This document shows positions 2-9,745 of a stretch of 64,000 nt of DNA, piece after piece. The notes below the pieces were generated by a model. The model was not told the origin of the DNA, searched no databases, and worked only from the letters and a program-made list of their open reading frames with translations. The DNA is from Peterkaempfera bronchialis. GTDB lineage: Bacteria > Actinomycetota > Actinomycetes > Streptomycetales > Streptomycetaceae. The stretch is taken from positions 1,922,001 to 1,986,000 of the forward strand of contig NZ_CP031264.1 in the NCBI RefSeq assembly GCF_003258605.2, given 5' to 3'. The translations under genes and the position numbers were made by a program. How positions within the stretch are numbered: the first letter of the stretch is position 1; every line of letters starts with the position of its first letter.

Positions 2-991
2 GCGATGATGCTGGAGCAGGCCGGGATCGAGCCGGGCATGCGGGTGCTGGAGGTCGGCTCGGGCGGATACAACGCGGCCTTGATCGCCGAGCTGGTGGGT
101 GCTTCCGGCGAGGTGACGACGGTCGACATCGACCCTGAGGTCACGGATCGGGCTGCTCGTCTGCTGGCGGGCGCCGGCTACACCCGTGTCCGTGTGGTCT
201 GCGCGGACGCCACGGACGGTGTTCCCGCGTACGGCCTGTACGACAGGATCGTGGTGACGGCCGGTGCCTGGGACATCCCGCCGGCCTGGGTGTCCCAGCT
301 GACCGCCGGCGGGCGGCTGGTAGTGCCGCTGCGGATGCGGGGGCTGACCCGGTCGATCGCCTTCGACCGCGCCGGTGACCACCTGACCAGCGTCTCGGCG
401 CAGGTGTGCGGGTTCGTGCCGATGCAGGGCGCGGGCGCGCACCGTGAGGAGTTGCTGCTGGTCACCGGTACGGGCGAGATCGGGCTGCGCTTCGACGACG
501 GACTGCCCGCAGACCCCAGCCGCCTGGACAACGCGGTGCGCACGCCGCGGGCGGAGACCTGGAGCGGCGTGCTGATCGGGCGGCAGGAGCCGTTCGACAC
601 GCTCCAGCTGTACCTGGCCACGGTCCTGGACGGCTTCTGCATCATGGCCGTCGACCCGGATCTGGATACCGGTCTGGTGGCGCCGGCGAACAGGTGGTTC
701 TGCATGGCCGCCGTCGACGGCGGCAGTTTCGCCTACGTCACCACCCGCCGCACTGCCGACGAGGCGTCGGTCGAGTTCGGCGTGCATGCCCTCGGGCCCG
801 ACGCCGTCGCGCTCGCCGAGCGCGTCGCCGAGCAGATCCGCACCTGGGAACGGGAGCGCCGCAGCGGCCCCGGCCCGGTGATCCGCGTCTACCCGGCCGA
901 CACCCCCGATGACCAGCTGCCCGACGGGCGGGTCATCGACAAGCAGCACTGCCGGATCTCCATCTCCTGGCCTGCGGCGACCGCCGCCTAG
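2..991 (+). CDS. FxLD-system PIMT-like O-methyltransferase (5' partial)
   Basis: This is a SAM-dependent methyltransferase of the protein-L-isoaspartate methyltransferase family, in the form linked to FxLD lanthipeptides. In the related OlvSA system the enzyme methylates an Asp side chain of the modified peptide, which then forms a succinimide and isoaspartate. The visible part opens inside the Rossmann fold: the SAM-binding motif VLEVGSGGYNAAL lies about 10 residues from the left edge, followed by the acidic motif VDIDPEV and the post-motif DRIVVTAG. About 200 further residues form the C-terminal extension typical of the lanthipeptide-linked subfamily. The frame is open to base 2, so the N-terminus lies outside the window. 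The precursor gene starts about 50 bp downstream. The family call is confident; the exact modification is inferred from relatives. Confidence 0.85.
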   Translation, partial: AMMLEQAGIEPGMRVLEVGSGGYNAALIAELVGASGEVTTVDIDPEVTDRAARLLAGAGYTRVRVVCADATDGVPAYGLYDRIVVTAGAWDIPPAWVSQLTAGGRLVVPLRMRGLTRSIAFDRAGDHLTSVSAQVCGFVPMQGAGAHREELLLVTGTGEIGLRFDDGLPADPSRLDNAVRTPRAETWSGVLIGRQEPFDTLQLYLATVLDGFCIMAVDPDLDTGLVAPANRWFCMAAVDGGSFAYVTTRRTADEASVEFGVHALGPDAVALAERVAEQIRTWERERRSGPGPVIRVYPADTPDDQLPDGRVIDKQHCRISISWPAATAA

Positions 992-1042
992 GCCAGGCGT
1001 CCTGCACCACCCACCGAGAAGAAGAACAGGAGAGTGATCGAG

Positions 1043-1249
1043 ATGGCGGACACCCGCGTCTCGGGCGGCGCCACGGCGCTGGCCGAGCGGCCCGCTGCCG
1101 ACGGCGCCTTCGCCGACGAGTTCTCGCTCGACGTGAGGGTCGTCGTCGCCGCCCATCCCAACGGCAAGCTCGCGTGCTCCACGAGTGACGGCTGCGGCTC
1201 CTCCTGCAGCGGAAGCGCCTGCACCAGCTTCACCGACGACCCGGTCTGA
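1043..1249 (+). CDS. FxLD-family lanthipeptide precursor
   Basis: This is a 68-residue precursor peptide. The leader carries the family signature F27-S-L-D30 (context EFSLDVRVV). The C-terminal core has four Cys (45, 51, 55, 60) among many Ser and Thr, enough for up to four (methyl)lanthionine rings. Asp49-Gly50 sits between the first two Cys and is the natural target for a PIMT-type methyltransferase. ATG at 1043 is chosen because AGGAG at 1028-1032 gives about 10 nt spacing. The in-frame GTG at 1034 would nearly abut that ribosome site. A strong hairpin and the LanB gene follow. The start of the core (the leader cleavage site) cannot be read from sequence, and no dedicated protease is visible in the window. 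Confidence 0.88.
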   Translation: MADTRVSGGATALAERPAADGAFADEFSLDVRVVVAAHPNGKLACSTSDGCGSSCSGSACTSFTDDPV

Positions 1250-1260
1250 CGGGTCCGACG

Positions 1261-1301
1261 CCGGTGGTGTGCCGGGCGGTCCCCGCCCGGCACACCACCG
1301 G
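1261..1301 (+). terminator. Perfect 19-bp hairpin between precursor and LanB gene
   Basis: Arms CCGGTGGTGTGCCGGGCGG (1261-1279) and its exact complement (1283-1301) enclose a 3-nt loop. There is no T-tract, as is usual in this genus. The position just after the precursor stop and 34 bp before the LanB start suggests a partial terminator or mRNA stabiliser that keeps precursor message in excess over enzyme message, as in other lantibiotic operons. The function is inferred. Confidence 0.75.
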
Positions 1302-1335
1302 TACCCGGCAGCACGCGTTCCCAGGGGAGGGGCCG

Positions 1336-4300
1336 ATGGCATCGAGTTCACCGCTGCGCTACCGGTGGCGGGGCGGCGCGATACTGCGCGCCACCACCGA
1401 TCCGGGGGACCTGGGTCTGCCCGGTGATCTGGACCTGTGCGGCGACGCCGGCGCGGCGCGGGCCCGGGGATGGCTAGGCCAGGTGTGGCGGCGCGAGGAC
1501 GTCCGCGACGCCCTGAGCGCGGCCAGCCCCGTCCTGTGCCGCCAGGTCGACGCCGTCCTGGCCGACGCGTCCTGCGGGGCACGGCAGCTGCGCCGGACCG
1601 TGCTCTCGGTCGCCTCCTACCTGCTGCGCTGGCAGCGCCGCCCCACGCCTTTCGCCCTGTTCGCCGGCGTCGCCGCCGCGCGGATCGGCTCCGTGCCCCG
1701 TGCCTCCTGGGGAACCGGGCACACCGCGTTCGTGCGGCCCGACGCGGAGTGGCTGGCGGATGTCATCGGGTGCCTGGAGCAGCATCCCGACCTGCTGCGC
1801 CGGCTGCCGGTGGTCGTCAACGACGCGGGGCGGATGCGCGGGGGCCGCTTCGTGGTCCCGGGGGCGCCAGCGGATGGGCGTGCCCACCTGCTCGCCCCCC
1901 TGGAGGTCTCGGTCGGTGTGACCCGACCGGTCTGCGCGGTGCTGGACGCTGCCCGGGCCCCGATCCCGTACGACGACCTGCGCTCCCTGCTCGTAAGCCG
2001 GTTCCCCGCCGCTGCGCCGCAGCAGGTCGACTCCGTGCTGCGCGGGCTGATCACTCAGAACATGCTGATCACCAGCCTGTGGCCGCCGATGACCCACCTG
2101 GACGGCCTGGGGCACCTGTGCCGGGAGCTCGAAGCCGCCGGGGCCGAGACGGTCGGGGCGGTCGCGGACCTGGTGCGCAGGCTGTATGAGATCCGCGACG
2201 GACTCGCCGACCAGGACCCGACGGCTGCGTGGTCGGCCCGTGCCGGGCTGATCGAGCGGATGAACGCGGTCAGCACGGTCACGCCGGTGCCACTGATCGT
2301 CGACACCGCCCTGGACTGCGACATAGAGATCCCCGAGCAGGTGGTCCAGGAGGCGCAGGAGGCGGCCTGCGTCATGTACCGGCTCACCCCGCAGCCGTTC
2401 GGGTACCAGCAGTGGCGCGATTACCACCGCGCGTTCCGCGCCCGGTACGGGACCGGCGCGCTGGTCCCCGTCCTGGACCTGGTCGCCGACAGCGGCCTCG
2501 GCCTGCCCGCCGACTACCAGGGCGCCGCGCTGGGCCGCCCGCCCCGGCAGGTGACCGAGCGCGACGAGAAGCTCCTCGCCCTGATCCAGCAGGCCCTGCT
2601 GGAGCGGCGCGAGGAGATCGTCCTGACCAAGGAGGTGATTGCGGACCTGGCCCTCGGCCAGGACGCTGAGCTGATCCCCGTGCCGAGGGTCGAGATCGCG
2701 GTCGAGATCCACGCCGCCTCCCTGGAAGCCCTCGCGCGGGGGGCGTTCCGCCTGGTGGTGACCGGGGCGCCGCGGCCGGGAGCCAGCATGGCCGGCCGCT
2801 TCACCCACCTGCTGCCCGAACCGGACCAGGCCGCGGTCGCCGCCACCTACGAGACCGCCGACCCCGGGGTGGTCGCCGCGCAGTTGTCGTTCGCGCCGAG
2901 GCGCCGCCGCACCGAGAACATCATCCGCACCCGGCAGGTCCTGCCCCACGTCATCCCGGTCAGCGAGCACCGCGCCGATACCGACGGCGTGATCGGTCTT
3001 GCGGACCTGGCGGTCACCGCGGACGCCCGCGCCTTCCAGCTCGTGCAGATGTCCACCGGGCGCCTCGTGGAACCGCGGGTCGCGCACGCGCTGGAGGCCG
3101 GTGTGCACACCCCTGCCCTGGCCCGGTTCCTCGCAGAGATCACCACCGCCCGGTCGGCCGCCTACAAGGGCTTCGACTTCGGAGCGGCCGTCCATCTGCC
3201 CTACCTGCCGCGGGTGCGCTACCGCAGCACCGTGCTCTCCCCTGCCCGCTGGATGCTCAGATCCCAGGACCTGCCCAGCCACGGTGCCGCAACCACCGAG
3301 TGGGACAAGGCGCTTACGGCGTGGCGGGGCAGGCTGCGGGTACCTGAGCGGGTGACGGTCGTCGACGACGACCAGCGGCTCCCGCTGGACCTCGACCACT
3401 CGCTGCACCGGATGATGCTGCGCCGCAGCCTGGATGCCGCCGGACGCCTCGAACTGGGCGAGGCACCGGCTCCCGACGCGGTGGCCTGGCTCGGCCGCCC
3501 CCACGAACTGCTCCTGCCCCTGACCCTGGAGACGCCTCTCGCCCCCAGACGGCCAACCGGGCCGCTCCGCCGCGTCGCGGGCGACGCCGCCCAACTGCCG
3601 GGGCGCGGCCAGGTGCTGGCGGTGCATCTGTCAGCCCATCCGGCCCGCTACGACGAGATCCTCACCCACCACCTGCCGAGCTGGCTCGACCCCGCCGAGC
3701 GGTGGTGGTTCCGGCGCCACCGCGACCTGGCCCGCCCGGACGCCGACCAGTACCTCGCCCTCTACCTGTCGCTGCCCCACCCGGACGCGTACGGGCAGGT
3801 CGCGCGGCGCGTCAGCGACTGGGCGGCCGAACTGCGCCGCCGACACCTGGCCTCCCACCTGGCCCTGGCCACCTACGAGCCCCAGACGGGACGCTACGGC
3901 CACGGCGCGGCGATGGACGCCGCGCACATCGTGTTCGTCGCGGACTCCGCCGCGGCGCTCGCCCAGATCCGCCTGGCCGAAAAGGCTGGAGTCCCAGCGC
4001 AGGCACTGGCAGCGGCCGGCATGGTCGACCTCGCCGCCCGCTTCGCCGCCTCCCCCACGCAGGGCCTGCACTGGCTGGTGGAGAACCTGCCCCGCGAGCA
4101 CGGCCCGCTGGACCAGGCTCTGCGTGACCAGACCCTGGCCCTCGCGGACCCGTACGAACCGTCCGCCGGCGTGCGGGAGCTGCCCGGCGGCGGCGACCTG
4201 GCAGCCGCATGGCAGACCCGGGCATCGGCCCTGGCCGCCTACCGGGAGCATCTGAAGGTCGAGCGCGACCCGCTGACCGTCCTTCGGTCCCTCCTGCACC

Positions 4301-4410
4301 AGCACCACGTGCGCTCCCTCAGCGTCGATCCGGACGACGAACGCGCCACCGGCCGTCTGGTCAGGGCGTGCGCGCTGCGCCACACCTCTCGCCGGGATGG
4401 CGTCCGATGA
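1336..4410 (+). CDS. Class I lanthipeptide dehydratase (LanB)
   Basis: This full-length LanB has 1,024 residues. LanB enzymes dehydrate Ser/Thr of the precursor by glutamyl-tRNA-dependent glutamylation followed by glutamate elimination. The large N-terminal glutamylation domain shows the signature RRPTPFALFAGVAAA near residue 100 and a later FRARYGTGALVPVLDLV block. The C-terminal 270 or so residues form a SpaB-C-type elimination domain (WWFRRHRDLARPD onward, ending in the conserved VFVADSAAAL stretch). ATG at 1336 is preceded by AGGGGAGGGG; longer in-frame starts would lie inside the upstream hairpin. The stop overlaps the LanC start as ATGA. A second, separate elimination-domain protein two genes downstream is unusual next to an intact LanB. 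Confidence 0.9.
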   Translation: MASSSPLRYRWRGGAILRATTDPGDLGLPGDLDLCGDAGAARARGWLGQVWRREDVRDALSAASPVLCRQVDAVLADASCGARQLRRTVLSVASYLLRWQRRPTPFALFAGVAAARIGSVPRASWGTGHTAFVRPDAEWLADVIGCLEQHPDLLRRLPVVVNDAGRMRGGRFVVPGAPADGRAHLLAPLEVSVGVTRPVCAVLDAARAPIPYDDLRSLLVSRFPAAAPQQVDSVLRGLITQNMLITSLWPPMTHLDGLGHLCRELEAAGAETVGAVADLVRRLYEIRDGLADQDPTAAWSARAGLIERMNAVSTVTPVPLIVDTALDCDIEIPEQVVQEAQEAACVMYRLTPQPFGYQQWRDYHRAFRARYGTGALVPVLDLVADSGLGLPADYQGAALGRPPRQVTERDEKLLALIQQALLERREEIVLTKEVIADLALGQDAELIPVPRVEIAVEIHAASLEALARGAFRLVVTGAPRPGASMAGRFTHLLPEPDQAAVAATYETADPGVVAAQLSFAPRRRRTENIIRTRQVLPHVIPVSEHRADTDGVIGLADLAVTADARAFQLVQMSTGRLVEPRVAHALEAGVHTPALARFLAEITTARSAAYKGFDFGAAVHLPYLPRVRYRSTVLSPARWMLRSQDLPSHGAATTEWDKALTAWRGRLRVPERVTVVDDDQRLPLDLDHSLHRMMLRRSLDAAGRLELGEAPAPDAVAWLGRPHELLLPLTLETPLAPRRPTGPLRRVAGDAAQLPGRGQVLAVHLSAHPARYDEILTHHLPSWLDPAERWWFRRHRDLARPDADQYLALYLSLPHPDAYGQVARRVSDWAAELRRRHLASHLALATYEPQTGRYGHGAAMDAAHIVFVADSAAALAQIRLAEKAGVPAQALAAAGMVDLAARFAASPTQGLHWLVENLPREHGPLDQALRDQTLALADPYEPSAGVRELPGGGDLAAAWQTRASALAAYREHLKVERDPLTVLRSLLHQHHVRSLSVDPDDERATGRLVRACALRHTSRRDGVR

Positions 4411-5642
4411 GCACGCCGCCCCGGCCGCCCGCCGCCCCGGCCGACCTGGTGGAGCTGTTCGCCGCGGCCCTGGACCGGCCCGCACCACCACCGCCGCACG
4501 AACCTTGGCAGGCGCACTCCCTCGCCGAGGGCGCCGCCGGGATCGCCCTGCTCCACCTCCAACGCGCCTACACCGGCCACGGAACCTGGCAGCAGGCGCA
4601 CGCCTGGATCACGACCGCAGCCAGCGGCGACATCAGCGCCGCCGACAACACCGGTCTGTTCCTCGGCGTGCCCGCCCTCGCCTTTCTGCTGCACGCCGCC
4701 ACCGGCTCCCCAGCCCGCTACGAGGAGTCCCTGGCCACGCTCGACCTCCACGTCGCCGCCCTCGCCCGGCGCCGCAGCGCCGCCGCCCTCGCCCGCATCA
4801 CCCGAGGCCAACTCCCGGCGTTCGCCGAGTACGACATCTTCTACGGCCTCACCGGCATCGGCGCCTATCTGCTGCGCCGCGACCCGGTCGGCACCGCGCT
4901 GGAGCAGGTCCTGGACTATCTCGTCGCGCTCACCCGCCCGCTGCGGGCCGACGGCCACCAACTGCCCGGCTGGTGGGTCGCCCATGACCCGCACGGCCGA
5001 ATGTCCTCCCGCTACGCCGGGGGGCATGGCAACCTCGGCGCCGCCCACGGAATCACCGGCGTCCTTCTGCTCTTGAGCCAGGCCGCGCGCCGCCGCGTCA
5101 CCGTCGCCGGTCAGCTCGACGCCATCGCCGCCCTGTGCGCCTGGCTGACGGCATGGAGACAGGAGGGGACGAGCGGGCCATGGTGGCCGGAGCACCTGTC
5201 GCCGGCCGACCTGCGCACCGGGACGACGCACCAATCCGGACCCGGCCGCCCGAGCTGGTGCTACGGCACCCCCGGCATCGCCCGCGCCGGTCAGCTCGCC
5301 GCCATCGCACTCCATGACCACCAGCTCCAACGCGAGTTCGAGGACGCGCTCACCGCCTGCGTCCATGACCCCGCGCAGCTGGACCAGATCACCGACACCG
5401 GCCTGTGCCACGGCTGGGCGGGCCTGTACCAGACGGTGTGGCGTGCGTCCCGCGACGCTCTCACCCCAGCCCTGCGCGCACGCCTGCCCGGCCTGGCCAA
5501 AGCGCTGGCTCGCCACGCCCGCCCAGGCACCGCCGGTCCCGGCTTCCTCGACGGCGACGCGGGGACCGCCCTCGCCCTGACCACGGCCGCCAACGACGCG
5601 GCACCGACCTGCGGATGGGACGCATGCCTGCTGATCGACTGA
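4407..5642 (+). CDS. Lanthipeptide cyclase (LanC)
   Basis: This is a 411-residue LanC-like zinc enzyme that adds Cys thiols to dehydroalanine/dehydrobutyrine to form lanthionine rings. The expected zinc ligands are present: Cys285 in WCYGTPG and the pair Cys334-His335 in LCHGWAG. The glycine-rich repeats of the alpha-toroid (YGLTGIGAYL, AHGITGVLLLLS) are also visible. Translation is probably coupled to LanB through the 4-bp ATGA overlap. The 3' end overlaps the next gene by 19 bp. Length and motifs are normal for the family and nothing looks broken. Confidence 0.9.
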   Translation: MSTPPRPPAAPADLVELFAAALDRPAPPPPHEPWQAHSLAEGAAGIALLHLQRAYTGHGTWQQAHAWITTAASGDISAADNTGLFLGVPALAFLLHAATGSPARYEESLATLDLHVAALARRRSAAALARITRGQLPAFAEYDIFYGLTGIGAYLLRRDPVGTALEQVLDYLVALTRPLRADGHQLPGWWVAHDPHGRMSSRYAGGHGNLGAAHGITGVLLLLSQAARRRVTVAGQLDAIAALCAWLTAWRQEGTSGPWWPEHLSPADLRTGTTHQSGPGRPSWCYGTPGIARAGQLAAIALHDHQLQREFEDALTACVHDPAQLDQITDTGLCHGWAGLYQTVWRASRDALTPALRARLPGLAKALARHARPGTAGPGFLDGDAGTALALTTAANDAAPTCGWDACLLID

Positions 5643-6691
5643 CCTCGCCCCCGGCCGTGCCGTCGGCCCGGCTACCGGCCGGCGTCCCGGAGACGGCGCG
5701 GGCCGTCCGGGAGGTCCTGGCCGGTACCCCGCTTGGTGAAGCCGCTCTCCGGGCGGACCTGGACCCGGCCGAACTGGCAACGGCCGTCGAGCTCTTCACG
5801 ACCGCCGGCCGCCGAGCGCTCGCCGAGCAGCACGGCGCCCACAGCCGGTGGACGCAGCTCTACCTGGAGTTCACCCACTGGGCGAGCGCGGAAAAGACGG
5901 CCGCCGAGCACCTGGCACCGCTGCTGCACACCGCGCAGCGGCAGGGCGATCTCACCGGCTGGTGGTTCATCCGCAAGCACCCCTGCTGGAGGCTGCGCCT
6001 GCGAACCTCCCACGACGCCGCGAAGGCCAGCGTGCCGGCTGCGCTGGACGGCCTCGTCACTGCGGGGCATCTGCGGCGCTGGTGGCCGGGCATCATCTAC
6101 GAGGCGGAGACACCGGCCTTCGGCGGCGGCGCCGCCATGACGGTCGCCCACGAGCTGTTCACCGCGGACAGCACCGGCATCCTGGCCCTGACCCGCCGCG
6201 GTGACCGTGCGCTCGGCCGTCGCGAGCTGTCCGTCCTGCTGTGCACGACGCTGATGCGCGCCGCCGCCCTGGAGTGGTACGAGCAGGGCGACGCCTGGCA
6301 CCGCGTCAGCGAGGACCGCCCCCTTCCCTCCGATGTCCCGCCGGACCGGCTCCAGGAGCTGGCCGGGAACATCGCCACGCTCCTGCGCGCCGACTTCGCC
6401 CCCGACGGCCCGCTGTGGGGCCCCGGCGGACCGGCGGAGTTCGCCGCCGACTGGGCCGGCGCCTTCCGCCGAGCGGGACAGGACCTCGGGGCAGCGGCCC
6501 GCACCGGGACGCTGGAGCGCGGACTGCGCCACGTCCTGGCGTACCACGTGATCTTCCACTGGAACCGCCTCGGCCTGCCGCTGCACACCCAGAGCGTCCT
6601 GTCGTGGGCGGCCCGCGCCGCGATACTCGACGCGCCCGCCTCCCCCGCCCCTCCGGCACCGGGCCCCGGACTCCAGCGGGAGGGCACATGA
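5624..6691 (+). CDS. Stand-alone SpaB-C / thiopeptide-type biosynthesis protein
   Basis: This 355-residue protein has the 'thiopeptide-type bacteriocin biosynthesis domain', the family of the LanB glutamate-elimination domain. The marker block is WTQLYLEFTHW, then GWWFIRKHPCWRLRLRT, i.e. the conserved W-x-FIRK-P-x-WRLR element. The C-terminal half is helical and ends near LAYHVIFHWNRLGL, also typical. ATG at 5624 lies inside the end of lanC; a GTG about 33 bp downstream is the alternative. Since the LanB already has this domain, the extra copy may assist elimination on particular residues, help complex formation, or do something else. The family is clear; the specific role is not known. Confidence 0.8.
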   Translation: MPADRLTSPPAVPSARLPAGVPETARAVREVLAGTPLGEAALRADLDPAELATAVELFTTAGRRALAEQHGAHSRWTQLYLEFTHWASAEKTAAEHLAPLLHTAQRQGDLTGWWFIRKHPCWRLRLRTSHDAAKASVPAALDGLVTAGHLRRWWPGIIYEAETPAFGGGAAMTVAHELFTADSTGILALTRRGDRALGRRELSVLLCTTLMRAAALEWYEQGDAWHRVSEDRPLPSDVPPDRLQELAGNIATLLRADFAPDGPLWGPGGPAEFAADWAGAFRRAGQDLGAAARTGTLERGLRHVLAYHVIFHWNRLGLPLHTQSVLSWAARAAILDAPASPAPPAPGPGLQREGT

Positions 6692-7853
6692 CCGGGTCGG
6701 AGCACCGCCGGCCGGGCAGCGAGCTGCCGGATGCGGCCCGCCGGGTGGTCGCCCGGTTTCCGCTGGTGTCCCGCCCCCGCCTGACCTGCCCCGACCTGGC
6801 GACGCGGATCGGCGAAGTGCGCGAGCACGCCCTCGCCGCCGAGCAGGATCCGGACCCGGCTGCCCGGCGACACCGGGCCTGCGCCGCCTGGAACCTGGCA
6901 GCGCTGATCGCCGCGGACTGCGGCATGCCCGCCTACGCCGCGCAGCTGTGCGAGCAGCAGTTCCACCTCTTGCGCGCCTCCTGGCCGACGACCGGCCCGG
7001 CCTCGATCGCCTCCCTCCAGCCGCTGGTCAACCTCGCCCGGCTCACCCACCGTGCCGGGGACCCGTACGGCGCATATCAGGCGCTGCTCGGCCTGGACGA
7101 AGCCGTGAACCACGGCGGAAGCGTCCCGGTAGCAGGCATGCCTGTGCCCTTCGACGCCTTCGCCGCGACCGATCGGGACCGAAGCCAGGCCGCGGAGTGG
7201 CTGCGGATCCTCGTCCGCCAGGACGGTCCCCGCTTCCTGGCCGCCGCCGGCCGGTGGGACACCGCCGCTGAACGCACCATGCTCGACGGCCCCGACGGCG
7301 GGCGGCTACGCGAAGGCCGCCAAGTCCACGTGATCGCCCACCTGCTCACCGGACGCACCCGCACCGCGCTCGCGCTCCTGGAGATCAGCCTGGTCAACAA
7401 GCCGTGGGAAGAAGCCGTCGCGGAGTGCCTGCACACGCTCGCACTGCTGCTCGACGAGCACCTCACCCGCCGGGACGCCGAACGGCTGCTGGCCGCGTTC
7501 CACGCCCTCCGGGAACCGGTACCCCGTCCGGACACCGGCGCCTTCCGGACCCGGCTCGGCCTGGCCGTGGCCGACCTCATGGCCGGCCCATGCCCGCAGC
7601 AGGCAGACCTGCTGCACGGCGAGCTGATCCGAGACGCCCAGGGCAGCGACGACGCCTTCACCGCCCGGGACCTCCTGGGCCACCCCGGGGCACGCGGACG
7701 GATGACTCCCGGCGAAGCCGGCACGCTCACCCTCATGGTGAGCAACGCCGGCCTCGACCACGGCTCGATCCCGCAGCCGCTGCTCGGCCTACTGCGGACA
7801 GCGACCCAGAGAGCCGAGACCGTCCTCACCCGGGTCCTTGCCCGTGGGTCTAG
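6688..7853 (+). CDS. Cluster-end helical protein of unknown function, probable 3' frameshift
   Basis: No family is recognised. The translation is Ala/Leu/Arg-rich and helical, with paired helices resembling TPR-type repeats (AAWNLAALIAADCGMPAYA, LVNLARLTHRAGDPYGAYQ). It starts by ATGA overlap with the previous gene, so it belongs to the lanthipeptide operon. The oddity is the 3' end: the reading frame meets no stop until 9241-9243, deep inside the ABC exporter gene, where the translation becomes Pro/Arg/Gly-rich noise. A TAG at 7851-7853, directly followed by a hairpin, is one frame away; one missing base around 7829-7847 would put it in frame and give about 388 residues. Alternatively the gene was truncated by recombination at the cluster edge. 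The end coordinate given assumes the frameshift model. Confidence 0.55.
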
Positions 7854-7878
7854 CCCCCGGCCCCCGCCGGGAGGGGGC
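7853..7878 (+). terminator. GC-rich hairpin closing the lanthipeptide operon
   Basis: An interrupted inverted repeat (GCCCCC ... GGGGGC around a smaller GGC/GCC pair) begins at the last base of a TAG. It supports 7851-7853 as the original end of the operon. The stem is bulged and has no T-tract. Confidence 0.5.
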
Positions 7879-7978: not shown

Positions 7979-9745
7979 ATGGCGTTGCCGCAGGGACCTC
8001 TCGATCACCGCTACCGAGGCGAGCACCCCGTCCGCACCCTCGCCTATCTGCTCCACCAGGACCGGGGACGGCTGGCGCTGGCCGTGCTCGCGTTCCTGAT
8101 CAAGCACAGCCCGACCTGGCTCACCCCGCTGATCACCGCCAATGTCATCGATGTCGTGGTGCAGCACCGGCCCATCACCCAGCTGTGGCTGGGCGCCGGG
8201 CTGCTGCTGGTGATGCTGGTGCTCAACTATCCGTTCCAGCTGGTCTACATCCGCTGCTGGTACGGCAGCGCCCGCCGGATGGGCACCCGGATGCGGACCG
8301 CGCTCTGCCACCGGATGCAGCAGCTCTCCATCGGCTACCACTCCCGGGTGAGCGCCGGGGTGCTCCAGACCAAGGTGATCCGCGATGTGGAGAGCGTCGA
8401 GCAGGCGTTCCAGCAGACCGGCGACCTGGGGCTGTCGGCGCTGGCCACGCTCACCGGGGCGCTGGTGGTGATCGGGGTGCGGGCGCCCGCGTTCCTGCCG
8501 GTCTTCCTGGTGGTGGTGCCGGCCGCGTCGGCGCTGGTGATGTGGCTGCGCGGGCGGCTGCGCGCATACAACGAGTCGTTCCGGCAGGAGGTGGAGCAGC
8601 TCTCGTCGCGGGTGAGCGAGATGACCACCCTGATACCGATCACCCGGGCGCACGGCCTGGAGCACACCGCGCTGCGCCGGGTGGACGGCACCCTGCGGCA
8701 GGTGCTGACGGCGGGTCTGCGGCTGGACCGGCTCAATGGGCAGTTCGGGGCGCTGGCCTGGATCATGCTCAATGCGCTGGGGGTGGGCTGCCTGGCCGGC
8801 TCCGCGCTGGCCGCGTACTACGGCTGGCTGGCCGTCACCCCCGGCGATGTGGTGATGCTCAGCGCGTACTTCTCCGCCCTGACGGCGGCGGTGACCACGC
8901 TGATGGGGCTGACCCCGGTGATCAGCAAGGGCCTGGAGTCGGTGCGGTCCGCGGGCGAGGTGCTGGAGGCGCCGGACCTGGAGCAGAACGCGGGCAAGGC
9001 CCAGGTGGCCGAGGTGCGCGGCCGGGTGGACTTCCAGGGCGTCGGCTATGCGTACGACGACGCGGAGCGGCATTCGGTGCGGGACTTCACCCTCTCGGTG
9101 CGGCCCGGCGAGACCATCGCCCTGGTCGGCGCCTCGGGCGCGGGCAAGTCCACGGCGCTCAACCTGGTGACCGGCTTCCTGCGGCCCACCGAGGGCCGGA
9201 TCCTGCTGGACGGCGCCGACATGGAGTCCCTGGACCTGCGTAGCTACCGGCGGTTCCTGTCGGTGGTGCCGCAGGAGTCGATCCTCTTCGAGGGCACCAT
9301 CCGGGAGAACGTCACCTACGGGATGTCGGATGTCTCCGAGGAGCGGGTACGGGCGGCGCTGCGCGACGCCAATGCGCTGGAGTTCATCGAGCGGCTGCCG
9401 ACCGGGCTGGGCACGGTGGTCGGCGAGCGCGGGGCCCGGCTGTCGGGCGGTCAGAAGCAGCGGCTGGCCATCGCGCGGGCGCTGATCCGGGACCCCCGGG
9501 TGCTGGTGCTGGACGAGGCCACCTCGGCGCTGGACTCGCACTCCGAGGCGCTGGTGCAGCAGGCGCTGTCCCGGCTGGTGCGCGGCCGTACGGTCTTCGT
9601 GGTGGCGCACCGGCTCTCCACCATCCGCAGCGCCGACCGGATCGTGGTGATGCACGACGGCCGGATCACCGAGGTCGGCACCCATGAGCAGTTGCTGCGC
9701 AGCGGCGGGGCGTATGCGGGGCTCCAGGCGGCGCAGTCCGCCTGA
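7979..9745 (+). CDS. ABC exporter (fused permease-ATPase)
   Basis: This 588-residue type I ABC half-transporter has an N-terminal six-helix membrane domain (about 30-330) and a C-terminal nucleotide-binding domain. Visible ATPase motifs are Walker A GASGAGKST (384-392), signature LSGGQ (488-492), Walker B LVLDEA followed by the D-loop SALD, and the H-loop His in VAHRLS. The catalytic Glu is intact, so it can work as a homodimer. ATG 7979 follows AGGAGA. An in-frame ATG at 7940 is possible but lacks a good ribosome site. It lies directly after the lanthipeptide genes and could export the product, but the 120-bp gap, the hairpin before it and the lack of a peptidase domain leave this unproven. 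Convergent with the next gene (9 bp gap). Confidence 0.85.
   Translation: MALPQGPLDHRYRGEHPVRTLAYLLHQDRGRLALAVLAFLIKHSPTWLTPLITANVIDVVVQHRPITQLWLGAGLLLVMLVLNYPFQLVYIRCWYGSARRMGTRMRTALCHRMQQLSIGYHSRVSAGVLQTKVIRDVESVEQAFQQTGDLGLSALATLTGALVVIGVRAPAFLPVFLVVVPAASALVMWLRGRLRAYNESFRQEVEQLSSRVSEMTTLIPITRAHGLEHTALRRVDGTLRQVLTAGLRLDRLNGQFGALAWIMLNALGVGCLAGSALAAYYGWLAVTPGDVVMLSAYFSALTAAVTTLMGLTPVISKGLESVRSAGEVLEAPDLEQNAGKAQVAEVRGRVDFQGVGYAYDDAERHSVRDFTLSVRPGETIALVGASGAGKSTALNLVTGFLRPTEGRILLDGADMESLDLRSYRRFLSVVPQESILFEGTIRENVTYGMSDVSEERVRAALRDANALEFIERLPTGLGTVVGERGARLSGGQKQRLAIARALIRDPRVLVLDEATSALDSHSEALVQQALSRLVRGRTVFVVAHRLSTIRSADRIVVMHDGRITEVGTHEQLLRSGGAYAGLQAAQSA

Follow-up and report, generated by a model that had tools for sequence, protein, structure and literature searches.

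An FxLD Lanthipeptide Gene Cluster with an Altered LanB Lyase Domain and a Predicted Stand-Alone syn-Glutamyl Lyase

The Locus and the Proposed Pathway

Which enzyme eliminates glutamate from a lanthipeptide core when one of two lyase domains encoded in the cluster has lost active-site residues is the question raised by the class I lanthipeptide cluster at positions 2-7853 of the window, that is, of the whole 64,000-nucleotide stretch of Peterkaempfera bronchialis DNA analysed here. All genes are located on the + strand in close packing and follow the order methyltransferase, 68-amino acid precursor, LanB, LanC, stand-alone Lant_dehydr_C protein, and conserved helical protein, a six-gene set that is common to most of 80 named loci. 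The original prediction, which had read an FxLD leader, a four-Cys core, LanB, LanC, and a PIMT-like methyltransferase in a tight operon, is confirmed by NCBIfam and Pfam as well as by the coordinates. Its gene inventory holds for the genes that it named, while the stand-alone Lant_dehydr_C protein (5618-6691) and the helical protein (from 6688) had been missed. A leader protease is, as had been stated, not visible in the cluster, but such absence is normal for the family (PMC9486935).

According to the overall explanation, in which we place high confidence, LanB would glutamylate Ser and Thr residues of the core, the glutamate would be eliminated at least partly by the stand-alone syn-type lyase, and LanC would form the (methyl)lanthionine rings, the first of which is most likely Thr47-Cys51. 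The methyltransferase would then methylate Asp49 within this ring, and the methyl ester would convert into an aspartimide, the hydrolysis of which would mainly give isoaspartate. The conserved target, the family membership, and the signature residues are features of the sequences themselves, from which activity, ring pattern, stereochemistry, and product are deduced. The aspartate modification itself is already established; what is new is the change of LanB in the sub-clade to which the window belongs.

The Precursor and Its Family

The precursor gene (1043-1249, + strand) encodes 68 amino acids with the leader motif FSLD at residues 27-30, the core CSTSDGCGSSCSGSACTS, the cysteines Cys45, Cys51, Cys55, and Cys60, and the pair Asp49-Gly50. 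The protein matches NCBIfam model TIGR04363 with 60.5 bits (cut-off 30; E 1e-16), and since no match at E <= 0.001 is found in 14 control genomes, this is not a chance match; among related genomes, 51 of 150 contain matches. With both the precursor and the methyltransferase (TIGR04364) well over the NCBIfam cut-offs, the cluster is, by sequence, a member of the named FxLD (lanthimiditide) family, and at family level there is no difference. The closest relative of the precursor among those found shares 68% identity with it, so that the core does look distinct, as had been remarked, but such distinctness is trivial. A search of the precursor against plasmids returned zero matches. As a separate observation, a second Cys-rich peptide, LPALDIRLIEQDADVVQPTDLTDDSCGSGCSRS, is encoded at L076:13769 (- strand), beside the normal precursor of that locus.

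The Predicted Aspartate Target and Ring Pattern

The codons at 1181-1195 (+ strand) specify Thr47-Ser48-Asp49-Gly50-Cys51, the published TxDGC motif of lanthimiditides in the form TSDGC. The wider pattern T-x-D-x-C is invariant in 32/32 relatives obtained from HMM matches, a set that was found with a model containing this very motif; it also recurs in 73/73 precursors of a second set, defined as Cys-rich frames upstream of LanB in 80 loci that were found through another gene, with Asp not being required. The other acidic residues of the core, Asp65 and Asp66, are not conserved among the 32 relatives. Aspartate of TxDGC is the target of LanSA/OlvSA-type methyltransferases, as published for the whole family (PMC13001092, PMC11285071). 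Taking these counts together with the co-location of precursor and methyltransferase (76/79, see below) and with OlvSA chemistry, the assignment of Asp49 as methylation target is well supported on comparative grounds, as the original prediction had it.

The rings of CoiA1 are Thr43-Cys47, Thr50-Cys55, and Cys51-Thr57 (PMC9486935). Mapped onto the window core, they would correspond to Thr47-Cys51, Ser54-Cys60, and a ring of Cys55 with Ser62 or Thr61. T-x-D-x-C conservation and the analogy to CoiA1 thus predict a methyllanthionine ring around Asp49, and Thr47-Cys51 is more likely as first ring than one that involves Cys45. It had been suggested that Asp49, placed between Cys45 and Cys51, would give a β-amino acid in or next to the first ring; with Thr47-Cys51 as that ring, Asp49 would lie inside it. 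Cys45 would be the counterpart of the extra N-terminal Cys of OlvA. Two points count against the overall explanation. Between FSLD and Cys45 the window precursor has neither Ser nor Thr, a situation shared by 8 of the 38 precursors that possess this Cys; and the position of CoiA1 Thr57 is occupied by Ser62 (or Thr61), Ser being poorly used by CoiSA (PMC9486935).

The isoaspartate of OlvA is a reconstitution result, and the mature natural product is not known (PMC7268733). The mass test once proposed, a signature of +14 or -18 at Asp49, is flawed, as both the ester (+14) and the aspartimide (-18) are transient. Because isoaspartate is isobaric with aspartate, an Asp49 appearing unmodified by MS/MS would be no refutation, and mass criteria would catch only intermediates.

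LanC and the Stand-Alone Lyase

LanC (4407-5642, + strand) matches PF05147 with an E-value of 7e-41 and, in phmmer searches, 8byk and NisC; the WCYG and CHG motifs, which carry the zinc ligands, were located. The transferase domain of LanB and the zinc site of LanC mark the cluster as class I.

The following gene product, P0005 (5618-6691, + strand; start codon not fixed), matches TIGR03891 with 189.5 bits. It contains K120, R125, R127, E164, and A167, with the spacing of CoiSA K46/R51/R53/E89 and a non-Arg residue at the position of NisB R826. This combination, namely Lys in place of Tyr, two Arg, Glu, and a hydrophobic residue at R826, is the published mark of syn-lyases of the SptBb/CoiSA type, the makers of (E)-Dhb and D-allo-L-MeLan (PMC9011353, PMC9486935, PMC9890492). 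In all 78 lyases compared, Lys is kept and Arg826 is absent. By its signature, P0005 is predicted to be a stand-alone syn-type glutamyl lyase. Searched by sequence against the PDB, it gave no match. A stand-alone syn-lyase beside a full-length LanB is an already published category. Divergent extra lyases were seen in two class I clusters, L186 and L120, with RRQDA and KRRPA, respectively, at the signature positions.

The LanB Lyase Domain

LanB (1336-4410, + strand) matches PF04738 (E 3e-221, 2-649/649) and PF14028 (E 2e-30). Its transferase domain is intact, with Y95, R98, R102, and T104 in the spacing of NisB Y80/R83/R87/T89, whereas its lyase domain is altered. A808, Y810, and Q850 are found at the positions of NisB R784, R786, and E823, so that this canonical anti-lyase set is absent; the second canonical set is kept, with R853 and H988 corresponding to NisB R826 and H961. 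NisB numbering was mapped by published motif spacing, and a phmmer alignment to 5ehk gives the same pairing. The original prediction, sound in its choice of Asp49, had overlooked both this alteration and the second lyase. An altered LanB lyase site in FxLD clusters was not found described in the literature examined.

The alteration is not confined to the window. R784, R786, and E823 are present in 100% of 66 intact LanBs and in 0% of the 40 LanBs that make up the window clade, in which the fold residues of the lyase domain are kept; H988 is retained in 93% and R853 in 88% of this clade. In a tree built from the N-terminal domains only, all 40 members of the clade group together, with full SH-aLRT support, and the distribution of altered and intact sites on this tree requires three changes. 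Eight loci with a different four-Cys core (L187-L194) encode LanBs of about 680-756 amino acids, which stop short of the lyase domain, and one lyase per locus, which is of the syn type and fused to the methyltransferase. Their sisters L134 and L143 possess a full-length LanB with all checked site residues replaced (HHHQQD versus YRRERH), and L181, in which the Arg pair is lost, is a third loss case. Wherever a syn-lyase was looked for in these loss cases, it was found. From the window clade, the group L134/L143/L187-L194, and L181 it follows that the anti-lyase site was lost beside a syn-lyase on at least three branches. Judged from these sequences, key residues of the window LanB lyase site were apparently lost because a second, stereochemically different lyase took over.

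A one-to-one link between an extra Cys at T-2 and an altered LanB (31/31 versus 1/55) was considered and found imperfect, L200 and L202 being altered without that Cys; clusters with the T-2 Cys but without a LanB lyase domain are a separate lineage.

A Possible Division of Labour between the Two Lyases

The overall explanation may be refined to a split dehydratase, in which the LanB lyase domain would serve as scaffold only, the syn-lyase would perform all eliminations, Thr47 would become (E)-Dhb, and the Asp49 ring would be D-allo-L-MeLan; we give this refinement an even chance. It is favoured by the complete loss of the three residues in a single supported clade that has kept the fold residues, by the independent loss in L134/L143 with a sister clade devoid of the LanB lyase domain, and by an extra survey that was seeded with LanB itself and not with other genes. 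There, an extra lyase accompanies 15/15 altered LanBs and is absent from 5/28 intact ones, all five lyase-free clusters keeping RR, but the table by itself is not significant (Fisher p 0.14). Further points stand against the split. The catalytic His (H988) and Arg826 (R853) remain in most of the clade, so that residual LanB lyase activity is possible; NisB R784A alone still yielded 7-fold dehydrated nisin (PMC4341554); CoiSA R51A/R53A remained active (PMC9486935); and the coi system requires both lyases, at different Thr residues (PMC9486935).

The retained His and Arg826 and the need for two lyases in coi favour an alternative, to which we assign somewhat less than an even chance. In this view the glutamate pocket of the LanB lyase domain would be remodelled but its anti-lyase still active, and the action of P0005 would be limited to one site, as in coi. 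Against it, the γ-carboxylate pair and E823 are completely lost, and the variable replacements (A/S/D/W/T and Y/F/L/H) look like relaxed constraint; in addition, the whole lyase domain has been lost in parallel in another lineage.

Extended to the large actinobacterial FxLD clade, the split dehydratase would mean that a full-length LanB is functionally split, with its anti-lyase decayed (and deleted in a separate lineage), that the syn-lyase eliminates all glutamate, and that the aspartimide/isoaspartate ring is D-allo-L-methyllanthionine, in contrast to OlvA, where it is DL, and to CoiA1, where it is LL. This wider claim is tentative and falls slightly short of an even chance. If the lyase reading is true, the published grouping, in which full-length LanBs are all predicted anti-lyases and added syn-lyases go together with a full-length dehydratase (PMC9486935), does not hold without exception. 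The clade would then be a core family with predictable, unusual stereochemistry around the aspartimide, which is directly testable, and a decayed site followed by a deleted domain may represent the stepwise loss of one activity in a two-domain enzyme. Independent of this, the fused lyases of L187-L194, which occur without a LanB lyase domain, differ from the survey of PMC9486935, which states that a fused lyase is accompanied by a full-length dehydratase.

The Methyltransferase

The O-methyltransferase of the FxLD system (LanSA/PAMT type) is represented in the window by the 3' part of its gene (2-991, + strand). Its start codon is located 242 bases before the window (L009:5759), so that only 329 of 410 amino acids are encoded within it; the gene ends 51 bases before the precursor start. 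The full-length protein matches TIGR04364 with 587.9 bits over 394/394 positions (cut-off 320). A PCMT domain at residues 16-223 is followed by a C-terminal extension of about 187 residues, and an extension of more than 100 residues on a PIMT homologue is the feature of LanSA enzymes; such extensions are typical for aspartyl methyltransferases of RiPPs (PMC10787088). That an ordinary protein-repair PIMT, as the PCMT domain match might suggest, adjoins the cluster by coincidence is highly improbable, as the window fragment scores 482.6 bits with the FxLD equivalog model versus 86-108 bits with PIMT models, none of the control genomes contains a TIGR04364 match over the cut-off, and a precursor lies within 10 kb of the FxLD methyltransferase in 76/79 cases.

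Comparison with Known Systems

The olv cluster of Streptomyces olivaceus (OlvA/OlvB/OlvC/OlvSA) shares with the window a conserved Asp in a class I core, LanB, LanC, and a stand-alone O-methyltransferase (PMC13001092, PMC11285071, PMC9486935), and OlvA also has an extra N-terminal Cys. The olv cluster is described without an additional lyase and without CoiH, whereas the window cluster has P0005 and a protein at the CoiH position; OlvB is grouped with the anti-lyase LanBs, whereas the lyase site of the window LanB is altered. The window core lacks the Ser/Thr upstream of Cys45 that an OlvA-type N-terminal Lan ring would need.

The coi cluster of Streptomyces coelicolor A3(2) has in common a full-length LanB with a syn-lyase, a methyltransferase, CoiH, and the Thr-x-Asp-x-Cys ring (PMC9486935). 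Its lyase, however, is fused to the methyltransferase while that of the window is separate, and CoiB keeps the canonical anti-lyase while the window LanB has lost R784/R786/E823. The split-LanB clusters of SapT (spt) and dmxorosin (dmx) resemble the window in having a separate glutamyl lyase, and in spt the syn-lyase does the eliminations and yields D-allo-L-MeLan (PMC9011353, PMC11855644). Their LanBs are physically split, whereas the lyase domain of the window LanB is altered but still present as a folded unit, and an aspartate methyltransferase, present in the window cluster, is not described for them (PMC9011353, PMC11855644).

The Helical Protein and the Cluster Borders

The last gene of the cluster (6688-7851, + strand; 388 amino acids by homology) encodes a conserved, TPR-like protein. 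Homologues are encoded in 42 of the 150 genomes, and 53 of 57 are located no more than 10 kb from the methyltransferase; a species-wide collection contributed 254 confirmed relatives. Pfam and NCBIfam have no family for it beyond weak TPR matches in some members. AlphaFold confidently predicts a nearly all-helical repeat (pLDDT 95); Foldseek against the PDB gave no match at E <= 0.001, the best being TPR/MalT/14-3-3/Rap-like repeats, so that no function is assigned, and a sequence search of the family against the PDB gave no match either. In coi-type loci it follows the lyase/methyltransferase, which suggests that it may be CoiH, named with unknown function (PMC9486935).

Nearly all homologues end at 354-401 residues, but the window frame has no stop there (about residue 388). 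The stop at 7851-7853 lies in another frame; the frame of this gene is open to 9243 and overlaps an ABC transporter gene. A frameshift, a stop loss, or a sequencing error may account for the missing stop near 7840-7860. The ABC transporter (7979-9745), considered as exporter or immunity protein, is not a conserved part of the cluster, as no more than 8 of 82 related loci contain a relative, in no case immediately behind the last gene; likewise, the divergent XRE-like regulator upstream is not conserved (4 of 82 loci).

Paralogous Clusters

The host genome, a single contig of 7.09 Mb, contains three FxLD clusters according to profile searches. Those outside the window, L010 (G000:C1, about 5099900-5107500) and L011 (G000:C1, about 3980700-3987400), each have their own methyltransferase, precursor, LanB, LanC, and syn-lyase. 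Their precursor motifs are TDDGC and TGDGC, respectively, and the LanB lyase residues are intact (YRRERH) in both, by which the genome offers a natural comparison of one altered and two intact LanBs. Four to six FxLD methyltransferases per genome are found in the actinobacterial genomes G049, G012, G037, G081, and G099, so that it is common for a single strain to carry paralogous sets.
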